Notes: a model not told the origin generated them from the letters alone. 64,000 bases of DNA from Rhodothermia bacterium (GCA_017303715.1 JAFLBZ010000003.1:1-64000); one strand, 5' to 3'; shown: positions 7,780 through 14,880, numbered from the stretch's first letter. Translations and numbers: made by a program.

Positions 7780-8796
7780 TTACAAGACGCCCGTAGCCTT
7801 TAAGAGCGCCAAAGTGCCTTCCAAGTCTGCGAGTGTATTCAAATCAACGGCCATTTTAACTTTTCCCAATGCCTCAACTTGCATCAGTTTGGGATGAAGT
7901 TTAACCCCATCCACCACTGGATATTCAAATTCATCGTTTGCCATGTAGGTTTGTCCGGCTTGCGAAAGAATGAATTTAAGGAATGCCTTGGCAGCTTCTG
8001 GGTTTTTACCGGATTTCAGGATTCCCGCCCCCGAAACGTTTACCAAATTCCCTGCATCTCCGGCCTTAAACATGGTTTGCGCCACCGGATAGTTGGGGTC
8101 TTTGTCTGTGAACGACAAGAGATAATAATGGTTTGGCAGCCCCAAATCGGCTTCTCCAGCAGCAATGGCTTCAACAATGGCCGCGTTGTTGGTATAGGAC
8201 TTGGGTTCGTTTGCCTTCATGGCCAAAAGCCAAATACGTGCTTTTTCTTCGCCTTGCGTCATGCGGAGCGCTGTTACAAAAGATTGAAAAGAAGCATTAT
8301 CTGGCGCCCAAGCAATTTTCCCCTTCCATTTTGGATTCGTGAGGTCTTCAATCCCTTGTGGCAACTCTGCTACCTGTACACGTTTTACGGAATATGCCAA
8401 AGTTCTTGCACGTCCGGTAAGGGCCACCCATTGATCGTGTGGGTTTTGAAAGGTCTTGGCGACAGAGCCACTTAGCGCTTTGGGCAAATCGGCAAAAAGC
8501 CCAGCTTTCATCACTGCGCCTAAAGCACCTGCATCTTGCGCCCAGAAAAGGTCTGCCGGGCTTTTGTCCCCTTCCTGCTGTAACACCAAAGCAAGCTCCG
8601 CCGTTTTACCATATTTAACCTGTACATTTATACCGGTTTCCTTCATAAAACGCTCAATAATCCCATCTACCAACTCCTTCCCACGTCCGGCATACAGCAC
8701 TAAACTCTTATCATCGGAGGTATTGGATGGTTGTGGGTTACAACCGGAAATCAAAAAAACACCCAAGGCCAGCATCAGAAAAGTTCGTTTCATCAT
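7780..8796 (-). CDS. fbpA: Ferric iron ABC transporter, substrate-binding lipoprotein
   Basis: Binds ferric iron in the periplasm and delivers it to the FbpB-like permease. The 338-residue protein starts with a lipoprotein signal whose lipobox LISGC places the lipidated Cys at 19, so it is membrane-anchored. The mature part starts LVLYAGRGKELV, typical of FbpA/FutA (class II fold), and contains ADLFWAQDAGAL. The adjacent tyrosines Tyr224-Tyr225 (PNHYYLLSF) match the tyrosine pair that holds iron in FbpA. First gene of the operon. A perfect TTTAGA-N5-TCTAAA palindrome lies 25 bases upstream, consistent with repression when iron is plentiful. Confidence 0.88.
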   Translation of the reverse strand: MMKRTFLMLALGVFLISGCNPQPSNTSDDKSLVLYAGRGKELVDGIIERFMKETGINVQVKYGKTAELALVLQQEGDKSPADLFWAQDAGALGAVMKAGLFADLPKALSGSVAKTFQNPHDQWVALTGRARTLAYSVKRVQVAELPQGIEDLTNPKWKGKIAWAPDNASFQSFVTALRMTQGEEKARIWLLAMKANEPKSYTNNAAIVEAIAAGEADLGLPNHYYLLSFTDKDPNYPVAQTMFKAGDAGNLVNVSGAGILKSGKNPEAAKAFLKFILSQAGQTYMANDEFEYPVVDGVKLHPKLMQVEALGKVKMAVDLNTLADLEGTLALLKATGVL

Positions 8797-8820
8797 GGTA
8801 TTTGTTGATAATACTTTTTG

Positions 8821-8837
8821 TTTAGACTCAATCTAAA
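8821..8837. promoter_or_regulatory. Iron-box-like palindrome before the ferric ABC operon
   Basis: TTTAGA (8821-8826), five bases, TCTAAA (8832-8837): the same arms and spacing as before the TonB-dependent receptor. Its centre is 33 bases upstream of the fbpA start, a position that would block transcription. The spacer sequences differ, so the arms appear to be what is conserved. Confidence 0.65.
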
Positions 8838-8886
8838 TAAAATCAATCAAAATACCAACGGGCATACAAAAAAATCAACAACTCAC

Positions 8887-8949
8887 TTGACTATACGACG
8901 ATCATCGTAGTATATTAATTACGACGATCATCGTACTTTCATCATCGTA
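8887..8949 (+). promoter_or_regulatory. blaI promoter with two full operators and a half-site
   Basis: A sigma70-like promoter reads TTGACT (8887-8892), an 18-base spacer, TATATT (8911-8916). TACGACGATCATCGTA occurs twice, at 8894-8909 (inside the spacer) and at 8920-8935 (near the expected transcription start), with centres 26 bp apart. A half-site ATCATCGTA follows at 8941-8949. The outer arms TACGA/TCGTA form the dyad; the centre is nearly symmetrical. The arrangement fits autorepression by the BlaI-type repressor encoded at 8962. Confidence 0.75.
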
Positions 8950-8961
8950 AAAAAACACCCC

Positions 8962-9339
8962 ATGAAACGATCTTACACTGGACTTGGCGAAACAGAAATG
9001 GAACTGCTCCGACATGTATGGGAGGCGGGGCGTTGTACCGTAGCCGAAATCCATCAGGTGGTTACGAAATACCGTCCTGTAGCCTATACCACGATTATGT
9101 CTGTAATGAAAAAATTGGCGGACAAAGGCTACCTTAAATTTGAGCAAGAAGGCAATGCCTACGTTTATTGGTCTGCCGAGCCAGCCGAAGAGATGCAAGG
9201 CAAAGTTTTGCAAGAAGTGGTGGAAAAAGTGTTTAGTGGTTCACCCTCGGCTTTGGTACAAACCTTGGTGGCGCAAGGCAACATGAGTGAAGCACAACGC
9301 GAGGAAATCCTTGCAATTATAGAACAACTCAAACCTTGA
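8962..9339 (+). CDS. blaI: BlaI/MecI/CopY-family transcriptional repressor
   Basis: Winged-helix repressor of 125 residues that binds dyad operators as a dimer and is inactivated by proteolysis in the classical systems. The N-terminal half has the family pattern: LGETEMELLRHVWEAG, CTVAEIH, then YTTIMSVMKKLADKGYL (recognition helix and wing), ending with VYWSAEP. The C-terminal half is a helical dimerisation region. It is the first gene of an apparent operon with an outer-membrane-type protein and a BlaR1-like M56 protease. Two matching operators overlap its own promoter. No beta-lactamase gene is nearby, so the regulated stress may not be an antibiotic. Confidence 0.88.
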   Translation: MKRSYTGLGETEMELLRHVWEAGRCTVAEIHQVVTKYRPVAYTTIMSVMKKLADKGYLKFEQEGNAYVYWSAEPAEEMQGKVLQEVVEKVFSGSPSALVQTLVAQGNMSEAQREEILAIIEQLKP

Positions 9340-9436
9340 GCCTTCTTTTGGGTCATGGTTGTCACAAAATTGGCCCAACACCGTCTTTTCAGCATCCGCC
9401 CATTCATCACTCTTCACCCCCAAACCCTCCAACATC

Positions 9437-10726
9437 ATGAGGATTTTACTTGGACTTTTTTTAAGTTTATTACACATCGGCGGCGCGATGGTTTTTGCGC
9501 AAAGCCCGCCTCCACCTTCAAAACCACAAGTTTTCTTAGACTGTACATTCTGTGACCACGATTTTATCCGATCGGAGATCAAGTTTGTGGATTATGTCAC
9601 GGATCGTGCCATTGCTGATGTACACGCCCTTATTACCACCGAAACAAACGGGAGTGGTGGCGAGACCTATACAATAGATTTAATGGGGCTCCAGCGGTTC
9701 CAGTCGTTAAAACAGACGCTCAAATTTGGGACATCTGGAGCCGATACTGGAGATCATGTTCGGAAAAAATTGGTACAGCATTTAAAGGTGGGCTTGGTTC
9801 CTTTTGTATCTGCAACGCCCACCCTTGCAAGCCTCCAAATTGGTTACACACCGCCCTCCGCAGACCCGAATACGCTGCCTGTTCCGCTTAACGACAAATG
9901 GAACTTGTGGAACTTTCGGATAGGGACCAATGCAAATATAGAAGCGGAAAGCAGCTATAAATCGGCCAATTACAGTGGCCGCTTCAATGCAAACCGAACT
10001 TCAGATAAATGGAAAACCTCTCTTTCCGCCTACTTAAGTAAAAACCGGAATGAGTTCACTTATACCAATGACCAGAACCGAGATACCACCTTAATTAACC
10101 TGAACAAGAACTGGTCTGTCAATTCGTCTGCTATTCGTACATTGGCCAAGCAGTCTTCGGGGCGTGTTTCTGTATCGCTTTTTGGTTCAACATATAACAA
10201 CGTTTTACGCAACTTTCAGATAAGTCCGGGCTATGAATACAGTTTTACGCCCTACGAAGAATCCACACGCCGTGCCTTTAAGTTGCAGTGGAATCCCAAT
10301 ATTCAATTCGTGGAATACGAAGAAATCACCCTTTTTGATAAAAAAACTGAAACTTTATTCCAGAATCGGTTGAGCGCCATCTTATCACAACAACAACCGT
10401 GGGGATCCGCCTCGCTGACCTTAACCGGAACACATTACTTGCACGATTTTCAACTTTGGCAACTTTCGTTGATAGGCAATGTAGAGTGGCGGATTACCAA
10501 AGGTCTGTCGTTTAGTGTAGGGGGGTCTTTTGCCTCCATCAACGACCAAATTAGCCTGCCCAAAAACGATCCTTCCAGCGAAGACATTCTGACGCGCTTC
10601 AAACAACAAAAGACAAACTTCCGCTATTGGACGTTTATGGGACTTTCTTATCGCTTCGGTGCATTAACAAATAACATTGTAAACTCCAGATTTGACGAAG
10701 GAGGTGGATTTTACATTTCCTATTAA
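9437..10726 (+). CDS. Secreted outer-membrane beta-barrel-like protein between blaI and blaR1
   Basis: Unrecognised protein of about 429 residues. The frame opens at 9359, but the ATG at 9437 (MRILLGLFLSLLHIGG) starts a clear signal peptide ending MVFAQ and is preferred. After a short Pro-rich stretch comes a CTFCDHDF motif with two cysteines. The rest alternates polar and aromatic residues (for example FRIGTNANIEAESSYK) and ends SRFDEGGGFYISY, as in outer-membrane barrels with a terminal aromatic residue. It sits 97 bases after blaI and 33 bases before the M56 protease gene on the same strand, so it is probably under BlaI control. A role as target or sensor of the system is a guess. Confidence 0.65.
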   Translation: MRILLGLFLSLLHIGGAMVFAQSPPPPSKPQVFLDCTFCDHDFIRSEIKFVDYVTDRAIADVHALITTETNGSGGETYTIDLMGLQRFQSLKQTLKFGTSGADTGDHVRKKLVQHLKVGLVPFVSATPTLASLQIGYTPPSADPNTLPVPLNDKWNLWNFRIGTNANIEAESSYKSANYSGRFNANRTSDKWKTSLSAYLSKNRNEFTYTNDQNRDTTLINLNKNWSVNSSAIRTLAKQSSGRVSVSLFGSTYNNVLRNFQISPGYEYSFTPYEESTRRAFKLQWNPNIQFVEYEEITLFDKKTETLFQNRLSAILSQQQPWGSASLTLTGTHYLHDFQLWQLSLIGNVEWRITKGLSFSVGGSFASINDQISLPKNDPSSEDILTRFKQQKTNFRYWTFMGLSYRFGALTNNIVNSRFDEGGGFYISY

Positions 10727-10759
10727 CCCATTGTTTTTCAAAAACTAACTCTAAACACC

Positions 10760-13543
10760 ATGACGCTATTTTCTTCATTTAGCGACCAATACCTTTGGTT
10801 CAATGCTGGATTGGTACTCTTCATTTGGAGTGCAATTACACTGGCAACATGGGGCATTCTTGAGATCAAGAAAAACTGGCATCCGGTTTTACGAACGGGT
10901 TTATACCGTGCGCTTATGGTGGCACTACCGCTAAGTATTTTACTGGTCGTACTCGGTTTTCCAGCGCTGATGTCCATTGAAAGCCCATTTTTTTCGCAAG
11001 AATCGGAAGCAAAAACTACCCTCGTTACACAAGAAGCAGCATTTCACGCCACTTCAAAGGCCACAACACCACTGCCTACCACCGGATCACCTCCTCGGCC
11101 ACAGGTGCAACAAACAAACAGCCAGAAAATACACCCCCTTTTCGGTGGGAAAGACGTTTTCTGGGGCGTTTTCGGCTTAGGTATTGGGCTGCTATTGCTG
11201 ATCCAATTGGGGAAGTTTATCCACGAAACCGCACAATTATATCGGTTCCGTCAAGGGCTTAAAGTCACCCTTCATCCAGATTTTCAAGACATGCTGTATG
11301 CATTGTCTCTACAAGTGGGCCTTCGTCCAGATCGGGTTTTGTTGGCCACAATCGAGGCAGAGACCGTCCCGATGACCTTTGGTTGGCGTAGGCCGATGAT
11401 TGTTCTGCCCGCCTTTTTATTGGAAAAACCGTTAGAGGCAGAGATGGCCATTTTCCACGAATTGGTACACATCCGCCGCCATGATTTTGTCTGGAATTGG
11501 GTAGAACGGCTATTGAATCTTGCATTTTGGTTCCATCCTCTGATGTACCTCATCCGCAACCGAATTGTGCAGGCACGCGAACAGGTTTGCGACACCACGG
11601 TCTTGAGCATTGGTTGTTATCCAGCAGATGTGTATGCCAAGCTATTGTTCCAACTTTCTGCTGCTCCGGCGCACCGTCCAGCGTTGCAAATGGCAGACAC
11701 GTTTATGAGCCTTAAAACACGCCTCGAAGCCATCAAGTGCCAAACCCATAGCCAGTACCACATCCAACACGCACACCGTTTAGGCAAAGTATTGAGTATG
11801 GTACTTCTCGTTCTAACGACGCTTCTTGTGGCCGGAACCAAGTTTTACGAAACACCACCACCAAAAACGACCATCACGCCAGCCATTGCAAATTCCGCTG
11901 ATTGCGCATTGTCGTTCAAAAGTGGCCAGATTAACTTATACAACAACAACGACTTGGATGTGAACGTATCCTACCGTGCCCATCGGGGCTTTTGCACGGG
12001 CATAATCTTACACCCACAAACGGGCTTAATCCGGTTTTCTACCATGCCTTTTCAACAGGCCCACCAAGCCGGAAATGTATCGGGGAACCTAATCCGCTTC
12101 TCGGTAGAAGGCTTCCATGTGACAATTTCATCCCAAGAAGCAATCTTGGAAAACCCCGCTCGGCAAACGCTTTATGTGGCGCGTTATCCAAAATACCAAC
12201 CGGAAAATTGGCAGAACAACCGTCCTGAAGGCAGTTTTGAACGGTTTTCGGATCCACTTTGGTACTTTGGCTTAGAAGCCGAAATGCCACAAGAGGAAGA
12301 AAACGGGGTTCTGACACTTGCAAATTCCAGCTCAAATCTAATTTTCTCCCCCAAAATAGTAAATGGCCGACCTGTTAAAAACGGAAACGATGTTACACTT
12401 TCTTCCACTAACGCCAATAACCATTATTTTTATTGGTTTTTGGAAGATGTCGGACGCATCATTTTCTCGGTTTCCAAATTTAGAGGGGCGGTAGAAACAG
12501 GAAAGGTAGCAGGAAAAAAAATGACCCTCTACCATCAAGGAAGGACTATCGAGATCGAAAACCATTACAACCTTTTACAAGATCGCTCCAATGCGCAAAT
12601 TTGGGTTAGAATAGATCCGAGTCCGCGCTACAAACATAGTGGCATAACGGCAAAGCCCGACCATATTGATCGGGAGATAGAATCCCAAAATCCGTCAATC
12701 ATGGGCACTTTTAGTAGGTCTTCCAGAAACACTACGACGGAGATACCAATAGAAGGATTTGATATTGTTGCAGACAATGAACCTGCGAACACAAATCCCT
12801 TAGCAAATACCGAAAGCAAACTTGCACAATTGAGTACGTTGTTAGACCGTCAGGCCGAACAATTAGACTGGGAGTATTACCGTACCCAAGAACTTTACGG
12901 CCAGTACCAAGAAAATACAGAAGTACGGGACGAAATCATGCGGTATGGCTTTGCCATGAAGCAAAAGATGAGGGGGCTTTCTTTGCTCAAGTCCCAATTG
13001 GAGCAACAAAAAAGCCTGCTTCAGAAGGGTTCTTTAGGAAACGCCGAACAAAGGTTAGAGGAATTATCACAAAGAATTAACCAATTAAACCGAGAAACAG
13101 AACTCCTAAAGCGACAAAAGCCAAAGTATTCCGACAAAAATACCAATCGCTCAGGCCTCAATACCAATCGCTCAGGCGTAAAGGTGTGGACAACATCACC
13201 CAAAGGCTCTTCCAACACCTCTGTGGCAAAACCTCCAAGCGGTATTGATGCAAGTTCACCAGCCAGAGCGCCAAGTTCGCGTGAAGAGCCGTTTCCTACA
13301 AGACGTAATAGCACAATCACCTCCCACGGTTATCACTTTATATGTGAATCAGGCAAAGACTGTTCTTTCACAACATCGTGTACCGAGAACAACAACTGTA
13401 GTGTGAATTCCTTTGTTCGTACAAGTCCACAAAACCGTTTAGGTGCAACGGCTGAGACCAAACTGACAAAGCCTTGCAACACCAAACAGCCTTGTGCGGA
13501 ATCGCCAGAGTCGGTAGTTCGACCCAAAAATAAAACGCCTTAA
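10760..13543 (+). CDS. BlaR1-like M56 membrane metalloprotease with a long novel C-terminus
   Basis: Membrane zinc protease of 927 residues, presumably cleaving or inactivating the BlaI-type repressor encoded upstream. Hydrophobic segments near residues 12-35, 48-72 and 133-153 precede the cytoplasmic M56 domain. Its zinc motif HELVHIRRHD is near residue 233 and a third-ligand candidate lies in REQVCDTTVL. A further membrane segment at about 340-362 leads to a roughly 560-residue exported part. This part does not look like the penicillin-binding sensor of BlaR1: it has a beta-rich region, a coiled coil (about 690-790) with many Gln/Glu/Leu, a tandem NTNRSG repeat, and a Ser/Cys-rich tail. The sensed signal is therefore unknown. 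A terminator follows at 13568-13606. Confidence 0.8.
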   Translation: MTLFSSFSDQYLWFNAGLVLFIWSAITLATWGILEIKKNWHPVLRTGLYRALMVALPLSILLVVLGFPALMSIESPFFSQESEAKTTLVTQEAAFHATSKATTPLPTTGSPPRPQVQQTNSQKIHPLFGGKDVFWGVFGLGIGLLLLIQLGKFIHETAQLYRFRQGLKVTLHPDFQDMLYALSLQVGLRPDRVLLATIEAETVPMTFGWRRPMIVLPAFLLEKPLEAEMAIFHELVHIRRHDFVWNWVERLLNLAFWFHPLMYLIRNRIVQAREQVCDTTVLSIGCYPADVYAKLLFQLSAAPAHRPALQMADTFMSLKTRLEAIKCQTHSQYHIQHAHRLGKVLSMVLLVLTTLLVAGTKFYETPPPKTTITPAIANSADCALSFKSGQINLYNNNDLDVNVSYRAHRGFCTGIILHPQTGLIRFSTMPFQQAHQAGNVSGNLIRFSVEGFHVTISSQEAILENPARQTLYVARYPKYQPENWQNNRPEGSFERFSDPLWYFGLEAEMPQEEENGVLTLANSSSNLIFSPKIVNGRPVKNGNDVTLSSTNANNHYFYWFLEDVGRIIFSVSKFRGAVETGKVAGKKMTLYHQGRTIEIENHYNLLQDRSNAQIWVRIDPSPRYKHSGITAKPDHIDREIESQNPSIMGTFSRSSRNTTTEIPIEGFDIVADNEPANTNPLANTESKLAQLSTLLDRQAEQLDWEYYRTQELYGQYQENTEVRDEIMRYGFAMKQKMRGLSLLKSQLEQQKSLLQKGSLGNAEQRLEELSQRINQLNRETELLKRQKPKYSDKNTNRSGLNTNRSGVKVWTTSPKGSSNTSVAKPPSGIDASSPARAPSSREEPFPTRRNSTITSHGYHFICESGKDCSFTTSCTENNNCSVNSFVRTSPQNRLGATAETKLTKPCNTKQPCAESPESVVRPKNKTP
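13139..13179 (+). repeat. Short tandem repeat inside the M56 protease gene
   Basis: Two nearly identical copies of AATACCAATCGCTCAGGC, separated by CTC, encode NTNRSG-L-NTNRSG. They lie just after the coiled coil in the exported part and suggest a recent in-frame duplication. Confidence 0.7.
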
Positions 13544-13567
13544 CCCGTAACAATACCTCCTCCAAAA

Positions 13568-13606
13568 CAAGCCCGTTTGCTCCAAGCAGCGGGTTTGTTG
13601 TTTTTT
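13568..13606 (+). terminator. Rho-independent terminator of the blaI operon
   Basis: CAAGCCCG (13568-13575) pairs with CGGGTTTG (13590-13597) with one wobble. An inner GCT/AGC pair extends the stem and TTGTTTTTT follows. It begins about 25 bases after the M56 protease stop codon. Confidence 0.75.
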
Positions 13607-13900: not shown

Positions 13901-14880
13901 ATGCCCACATCCGAACCCATAGACCACGATAGCTTATTCAAAGAACTTATTCGGGTTTTCACCTACGAGTTCATTACGTTGTTTGCCCCTAAATTGGCAG
14001 CCGATCTCGACCGAGATTCATTCGAGTTTTGGACAAAGAATTGCTCCAGCTTTTGGATCAAGGTGAGCGCAAAGAAGTGGATTTACTCGTAAAAGCAAAA
14101 TTAAGTGGTCAACCTGTCTTTTTCTTGATTCATTTCGAGGTGCAATCTTCGTCCAATAATTGGTCGCCTGTGCGAATGTTCCAATACACAGCGCGTTTGT
14201 ACGAGCGTTTTGGACTTCCCATTTATCCGATTGCACTTTTGACTTGGGATAGCCCGAAAAAAGAAACGTCTAGTCATTTTTCGTTTGGCTTTCCACACTT
14301 CAACGTGTTGCAATTCAATTTCCACACCATCCAACTCAACCGTTTAAATTGGCGGGACTTTATGCGCATCGAAAACCCTGTGGCAACGGCACTCATGGCA
14401 AAAATGAACATTCCAAAAGAAGATCGTCCTTACGTAAAGTTGGAATACCTGCGCATGATCGTTACGCTGAAATTAGACCGCACCAAATCCGCACTGATTT
14501 GGCAATTCATGGAGACGTACCTTCAATTGAACCAAATAGAGGAACAAAAAGCCCAAACCTTGATAGAAATAGAACTTCCACCTGAAAATAAAAACGAAAT
14601 GAGACTTTATAACACTTCCTTCCATGACAAAGGGCGTGCCGAAGGAATCCTGATTGGCATCGAGCAAGGAAAAGCCGAAGGCGAATTTCAAGCCAAACTC
14701 GCAACGACCAAACACTTAATCGAGCGCAAATTTGGCGAATCGGTGTTAGCGATTTATCAAGCACGATTGGAGCAAATGTCCCTCAAAGAAATTGATGCGC
14801 TTTTTGATGTGGCGATATTCTTCAACGAACCAAATGAAATTGAGGAGTGGTTTAACGAAAAGATGTTACCAACCACATAA
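13901..14880 (+). pseudogene. Rpn-family recombination-promoting nuclease, frameshifted
   Basis: Relatives are PD-(D/E)XK nucleases (Rpn/transposase_31 group) linked to recombination and mobile DNA. The first frame (ATG 13901) reads MPTSEPIDHDSLFKELIR and LFAPKLAADLDRD, then leaves the family pattern and stops at 14092. The second frame, open to 14880, continues the family sequence: LDKELLQLLDQGERKEVDLLVKAKL and FLIHFEVQSS, holding the EVD and E-x-Q nuclease residues. The break is at a run of four T (14027-14030), where one additional T would restore FEF-LDKELL. The C-terminal part is intact, with a helical GRAEGILIGIEQGKAEG segment. Either a recent one-base deletion, a sequencing error at a homopolymer, or programmed slippage. 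Confidence 0.8.

Follow-up and report, generated by a model that had tools for sequence, protein, structure and literature searches.

A BlaI/BlaR-type switch with a different outside sensor that appears to control a barrel-like protein in a bacterium related to Bacteroidota

Staphylococci use a switch consisting of a repressor and a membrane protease against penicillin, and signalling of this BlaR1 type, by direct cleavage, is understood chiefly for beta-lactams in Gram-positive bacteria. Here we describe an operon of a Rhodothermia bacterium (GCA_017303715.1, JAFLBZ010000003.1:1-64000; this whole stretch of 64,000 nucleotides is referred to below as the window) that shares with the BlaI/BlaR1 and MecI/MecR1 systems of Staphylococcus and Bacillus a winged-helix repressor with paired inverted repeats in an autoregulated layout as well as a four-helix M56 protease with the HEXXH...E signature. 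It differs from these systems in the sensor, which consists of beta-repeats, a coiled coil and a Cys tail and in which no penicillin-binding domain was found, in having neither a beta-lactamase nor PBP2a, and in the presence of a gene for a barrel-like protein inside the operon. In this relative of Bacteroidota, a BlaI/BlaR-type switch seems to have been put to a new use, the control of what looks like an outer-membrane barrel protein, with another external sensor in place of the usual one. Searches of the open-access literature turned up no description of this operon or of M56 proteins with such sensors. The loci described below offer a Gram-negative version of such signalling that recurs within an order, has a named output and draws on a definable sensor domain common to M56 proteins, and make the role of BlaI/M56 pairs as general envelope switches a testable idea.

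Organization of the operon

The three co-directional genes (+ strand, as are all features of the operon given below) encode a BlaI/MecI-type repressor of 125 aa (8962..9339; Pfam match to PF03965), a secreted barrel-like protein of 429 aa (9437..10726; an open reading frame backed by conservation) and an M56/BlaR1-like membrane metalloprotease of 927 aa with a non-penicillin sensor (10760..13543; Pfam, NCBIfam and PDB matches), which bears out the gene arrangement proposed in an earlier note on this DNA. The best start of the barrel gene is the ATG at 9437, which gives the signal peptide MRILLGLFLSLLHIGGAMVFAQ. Both sister species have the same three genes in the same order, with the operators kept.

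A sigma-70-like promoter, recognized by its sequence pattern and by comparison with the sister species, precedes blaI (TTGACT-18-TATATT, 8887..8916; the boxes are TTGACA/TATATT in both sister species). Two exact 16-bp inverted repeats span 8894-8935, namely O1, TACGACGATCATCGTA, within the promoter spacer (8894..8909), and its exact copy O2, directly 3' of the -10 box (8920..8935). These paired candidate operators at the promoter of blaI itself are conserved in both sister species; a third, imperfect copy (75%; 8934..8949), the end of which is ATCATCGTA, is repeated in tandem in one of them. Elsewhere in the 4.35-Mb genome, the O1/O2 sequence does not occur at up to 2 mismatches, and the matches with 3 mismatches are at background (15+12 compared to 7+14 in the reversed control). 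Because the operators are unique in the genome, the operon itself is probably the whole BlaI regulon. A rho-independent-type terminator hairpin followed by a T-run is located downstream of the third gene (13566..13599; folding energy of -19.8 kcal/mol, z=-4.2, 0/200 shuffles). Given that the promoter and operators precede blaI and a strong terminator follows gene 3, the region from promoter to terminator is most likely a single transcription unit.

The repressor matches PF03965 over residues 8-122 (E=1.9e-26, 93.1 bits with a cut-off of 22.6). It belongs to the same BlaI/CopY superfamily as the CopY/TcrY copper repressors (TIGR02698, E 5.6e-16) but, with 59 bits, scores well under the cut-off of 121.95 for that family, and the operon includes no copper pump. 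In contrast to S. aureus BlaI, the cleavage residues of the N101-F102 type are not kept, and the aligned place reads T-L; cleavage at a different site is possible.

The 927-aa protein matches PF05569 over residues 202-325 (E=2.7e-26, 92.9 bits with a cut-off of 31). Hydropathy analysis predicts helices at residues 12-30, 52-70, 130-148 and 341-359, that is, the layout of BlaR1, with four helices, the third and fourth of which flank the protease (TM3 and TM4), and with the C-terminus exported. The sequence contains a HELVH zinc motif (residues 233-237; 11456..11470), with H233 and H237 as ligands, and the third ligand, E274, is at +41 from the first His, followed by D278 at +45. The first of these spacings matches that between H201 and E242 of S. 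aureus BlaR1, and the +45 Asp is matched likewise. The residues H201 and Asp246 of S. aureus BlaR1 are named in PMC9834060. The sole sensible match of the M56 protein in a phmmer search of PDB covers residues 196-283 and corresponds to the protease portion of S. aureus BlaR1 (8exp).

The earlier note had claimed that the sensor is not a penicillin-binding one and that no beta-lactamase is nearby, and both statements hold at the level of sequence: searches of Pfam, NCBIfam and PDB found no penicillin-binding sensor by sequence (no transpeptidase or penicillin-binding family matched the 927-aa protein at E<=1 in Pfam or NCBIfam), and neither a beta-lactamase nor a PBP2a gene is linked to the operon among its neighbours. 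The match to the NCBIfam family blaR1_generic is confined to residues 153-358 and, at 63.5 bits, is below the cut-off of 400. Because a penicillin-binding domain recognizable by sequence, a sufficient family score and a linked resistance gene are all lacking, the operon is assigned to the broader BlaI + M56 kind, outside the beta-lactam-sensing family, and the arrangement of its sensor and its barrel cargo appear new. PADLOC gave no match.

The exported sensor part

The exported part of the M56 protein comprises approximately 570 residues beyond TM4 (residues 341-359 by hydropathy; 11780..11836). It consists of a twofold beta-repeat (11900..12640; two related repeats of the form GLIxFSxxPFxxAxxxGxV..., delineated by repeat and homology comparison), a predicted helical/coiled-coil region (residues ~680-785; 12797..13114; coiled-coil-type Pfam and NCBIfam matches) and a tail with six cysteines (residues 862-912; 13343..13495) that align with those of the sister species. 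Identity to the two sister species is 47-58%, with the beta-rich, helical and Cys tail regions conserved. An AlphaFold model of the exported part, built from a shallow, two-sequence alignment, has a pLDDT of 37, too low to be informative, and reaches 60-70 in the helical region only. Three of the elements listed in the earlier note (beta-rich region, coiled coil, Cys-rich tail) stand. The fourth, the NTNRSG repeat, is present in two copies in the window and absent from both sister species, and was rejected as a sensor feature.

The beta-repeat is present also at another BlaI-M56 locus of the same genome, locus 4 (BLASTP, 6e-6). A profile search of 394 genomes of the phylum recovered matches in the genus itself and in 13 genomes of one other family of the class (denoted f16). 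Outside the genus, 13 of the 13 matches are within M56 open frames, which indicates that the beta-repeat is a true M56-associated sensor domain rather than a chance extension; its homologues occur exclusively in M56 proteins or next to them. In f16, BlaI adjoins M56 at all 15 loci examined, two of which have no detectable beta-repeat. Two M56 proteins of this family were read over their whole length; in both, the beta-domain precedes a region assigned as TonB_C-like from its similarity to the M56 protein of locus 3 of our genome, which ends in a Pfam-matched TonB_C domain. These sensors may contact outer-membrane receptors, as the architecture suggests. The conserved f16 loci (L251-L263), in which BlaI is encoded with an M56 protein containing the beta-repeat and the TonB_C-like region, also share a conserved downstream gene.

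The Bacteroidota pairs of this kind (locus 3 and the f16 loci) have the same type of BlaI as the operon in the window and, in f16, a homologous beta-repeat in the sensor. They differ in that they contain TonB_C or a TonB_C-like region and have no barrel beside them, whereas the M56 protein of the window has no TonB_C but possesses the coiled coil and the Cys tail. More generally, the M56 proteins of the order commonly carry HEAT repeats, DUF4097, GH115_C-like repeats, TonB_C or other regions, not a penicillin sensor. Because such sensors are common in this phylum, the non-penicillin nature of the sensor in the window is ordinary, and the view that it is unusual as such finds no support. In the order and the phylum, several M56 proteins have very long sensors made of HEAT or other regular repeats (L094, L095, L096, L099, L103, L108) and one contains DUF4097 (L093); most of these loci have BlaI upstream.

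The barrel family and its association with BlaI-M56 pairs

The product of the middle gene contains a signal peptide, an N-terminal alpha/beta-like domain and a region of beta-strand patterning that takes up the C-terminal two thirds. The cysteines C36 and C39, in a DCxxCD motif, are invariant across 23 diverse family members. The protein itself has no match in Pfam or NCBIfam, and the profile of the family has none in PDB; among the 23 homologues, three match DUF481 and one matches OMP_b-brl, all weakly (E 4e-4, 2.5e-3). On the strength of the sequence pattern and these weak matches in homologues, the protein looks like an outer-membrane barrel; the AlphaFold model, derived from a shallow, two-sequence alignment, has a pLDDT of 33 and is uninformative. 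Unlike the DUF481/OMP_b-brl barrels, it adds an N-terminal domain of ~120 residues with the invariant DCxxCD. TolB_N, a candidate likeness of this domain, is nearly missing from the relatives searched.

The barrel family is represented in 101 of the 394 sampled genomes of the phylum and in 74 of the 114 genomes of the order, and this widespread, uncharacterized family hereby gains its first regulatory context. The genome encodes a second, paralogous barrel (40% identity) and a third, very divergent barrel-like protein of 620 aa with a longer N-terminal part (L188, G000:C38:34135-35208) that shows no linkage to BlaI-M56. An apparent fusion of the barrel to a second domain in another genome (G402, a 955-aa frame) was rejected as merely an upstream open frame with no recognizable fusion.

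The second barrel belongs to another BlaI-M56 locus (locus 2), which is present in all three species of the genus in the order BlaI-M56-barrel, with its own operators (TGTTAAAAAATTAACA, twice). Accordingly, a BlaI-M56 pair adjoins the barrel gene at both paralogous loci in 3/3 species. Outside the genus, we examined 98 contexts and another 40 with 41 barrels (~139 barrels altogether) and identified four linked loci in three other families: L147 and L199, in the order BlaI-M56-barrel, and L218 (with two barrels) and L225, where BlaI-M56 is divergent from the barrels. This is a lower bound because contig ends cut some contexts, including those of L195 and L197, whose barrels are the two closest to that of L147. 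Of the ~139 barrels, few adjoin BlaI-M56, and the family is for the most part unlinked in the order and phylum. A rough Poisson estimate for the four linked loci gives P = 1e-4 to 0.015, depending on M56 density and the allowed distance, or 0.0016-0.07 if L218 and L225, which come from one family and might represent one event, are counted once. In L218, blaI and the first barrel gene share an 18-mer inverted repeat upstream (16/18 positions identical, 0/60 shuffles); the divergent operator pair of L225 is not above chance. These contexts, together with the conserved gene order in both sister species, support the contention of the earlier note that the barrel belongs to the locus, for which it had suggested looking for the same three-gene order in other genomes. 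Of the two outcomes that the note had named as refuting it, neither was observed: no penicillin-binding C-terminus was recognized by sequence, and the barrel gene is present at the locus in relatives. A broader role of the barrel, as a general member of BlaI regulons, was rejected, given that no palindrome excess was detected upstream of 116 barrels compared to shuffles. The two tandem barrels of L218 (4543-7706), which are divergent from a single BlaI-M56 pair, belong to different subfamilies.

A tree of 146 barrels places the barrels of locus 1 (the operon in the window) and locus 2 as sisters (99*); on it, linkage to BlaI-M56 requires approximately six changes, five of them forced by well-supported branches. 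The pairing of barrels with BlaI-M56 has arisen several times among the relatives. In the trees of BlaI and of the catalytic part of M56, supported splits (99/98 and 97/96) separate the regulators of the two loci, although several long branches leave the placement within each side unsure. The gene order differs as well, BlaI-barrel-M56 at locus 1 versus BlaI-M56-barrel at locus 2. These comparisons indicate that the regulator changed while the barrel stayed. At least four kinds of sensor occur among the linked M56 proteins: the beta-repeat, a short C-terminus, GH115_C-like repeats, which the linked M56 proteins of families f6 and f11 have in common, and another type. With sister barrels under regulators of different lineages, the simplest reading is an exchangeable sensor with the barrel as the regulated output. 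The earlier note had left the barrel as either target or co-sensor; with sensors varying by family and the barrel constant, the evidence favours the target.

Possible function and neighbouring loci

We therefore consider it fairly probable that the locus is an autoregulated BlaI/M56-protease operon with an outer-membrane-type barrel as its regulated output. In the uninduced state, BlaI dimers bound to O1, within the promoter spacer, and to O2, where transcription would start, would silence the operon. The M56 protein would reside in the inner membrane via its four helices, with the zinc protease on the cytoplasmic side, and an envelope condition that meets the exported beta-repeats, coiled coil and Cys tail would activate the protease; BlaI would then be cut and the operon, including the barrel gene, expressed. 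Repression, protease activation and BlaI cleavage are modelled here on BlaI/BlaR1 biology, whereas the gene content, the layout as a single transcription unit, operators, zinc site, BlaR1 topology, absence of a recognizable penicillin sensor, conservation and recurrent barrel linkage are read from the sequences themselves. Points against this mechanism include the prevalence of barrels unlinked to BlaI-M56, the replacement of the S. aureus BlaI cut residues by T-L, a barrel fold read from sequence pattern and weak matches of homologues, and the operator pair of L225, which does not exceed chance. Because most barrels are unlinked and have no upstream palindrome excess, the barrel evidently does not need the BlaI-M56 switch.

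A rather unlikely alternative is that the barrel acts as a co-sensor in the outer membrane, through ligand binding or by signalling its own folding state, and is read by an M56 coiled coil and Cys tail that reach across the periplasm, much as TonB-like domains make contact with outer-membrane receptors. The long helical region, the TonB_C-like region that follows the homologous sensor domain in f16, the TonB_C terminus of the locus 3 protein, the invariant CxxC of the barrel and the conserved Cys tail of the sensor are all compatible with this possibility. However, the linked barrels pair with different sensors, with no common barrel-reading interface evident, and no Cys tail was noticed in the remaining linked M56 proteins; with mostly unrelated sensors and different regulator lineages, an obligate co-sensor would not be expected. 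A related scheme, which we regard as doubtful, is a periplasm-spanning surveillance switch, where the coiled coil and Cys tail of the BlaR1-like protease would read the state of the barrel, or of its CxxC domain, and repressor cleavage would set the amount of the barrel, a logic that would have evolved repeatedly with different sensors. If so, direct repressor cleavage would tune the amount of the very outer-membrane barrel that is being monitored.

Within the favoured reading, with the barrel as output, an unlikely special case is that the Cys-rich tail reads a metal or the thiol/disulfide state, with a role for the barrel in handling metals or metal complexes. Besides the six conserved cysteines of the tail and the invariant CxxC of the barrel, the divergent neighbour would fit: it encodes metal import in the window (iron-type ABC, SBP_bac_6) as well as in the sister species (a DtxR-like regulator with a metal ABC importer), and a similar TTTAGnCTnAATCTAAA box lies between it and the operon. 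The neighbouring operons, however, vary between species and appear to carry their own box, and the CxxC is a family trait that is present in unlinked barrels too. The Cys tail, the barrel CxxC and the metal-uptake neighbours offer at most a lead toward metal or thiol state.

The divergent metal-uptake operon is located beside the blaI operon in 3/3 species (window 7780-8796; L041 and L042), differing in kind. In the window, similar TTTAGACTnAnTCTAAA boxes are found at 8820-8838 and 2566-2584, upstream of the iron-type ABC operon (8796, - strand) and of a TonB-dependent receptor gene (2624, + strand), respectively, and in a sister species the interval that separates blaI from the DtxR-like gene contains a closely similar box (L042:11478-11493). 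These are possibly DtxR-type iron/manganese boxes. Just 3' of the operon, the window encodes a protein with weak matches to Rpn/transposase_31 and DUF4351 (14029-14880) that is not adjacent to the operon in the sister species.

It is quite improbable that the barrel is a passenger, a member of a family common and mostly unlinked in the order (74/114 genomes), with no widely conserved partner among the neighbours of the unlinked barrels, that landed beside BlaI-M56 pairs and is co-transcribed with no functional link, given the linkage at both loci in 3/3 species of the genus with differing gene orders, its recurrence in three further families, for which the tree requires 5-6 changes, and the operator repeated ahead of the divergent barrel in L218.

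Finally, a fourth BlaI-M56 locus of the genus (locus 4; L037:4477-6962, corresponding to G000:C3:110.5-113 kb; L233 and L234 in the sister species) encodes a split BlaR-like protein. In 3/3 species, two in-frame ORFs encode a protease half of 299-302 aa and a half of 381-389 aa that contains TM4 and the sensor. In the window species, the split is located 80 residues past the first His of HEXXH, within approximately 3 residues of the place that corresponds to the autocleavage site of S. aureus BlaR1 (PMC9834060). This split protein may help to explain what BlaR1 autocleavage is for.
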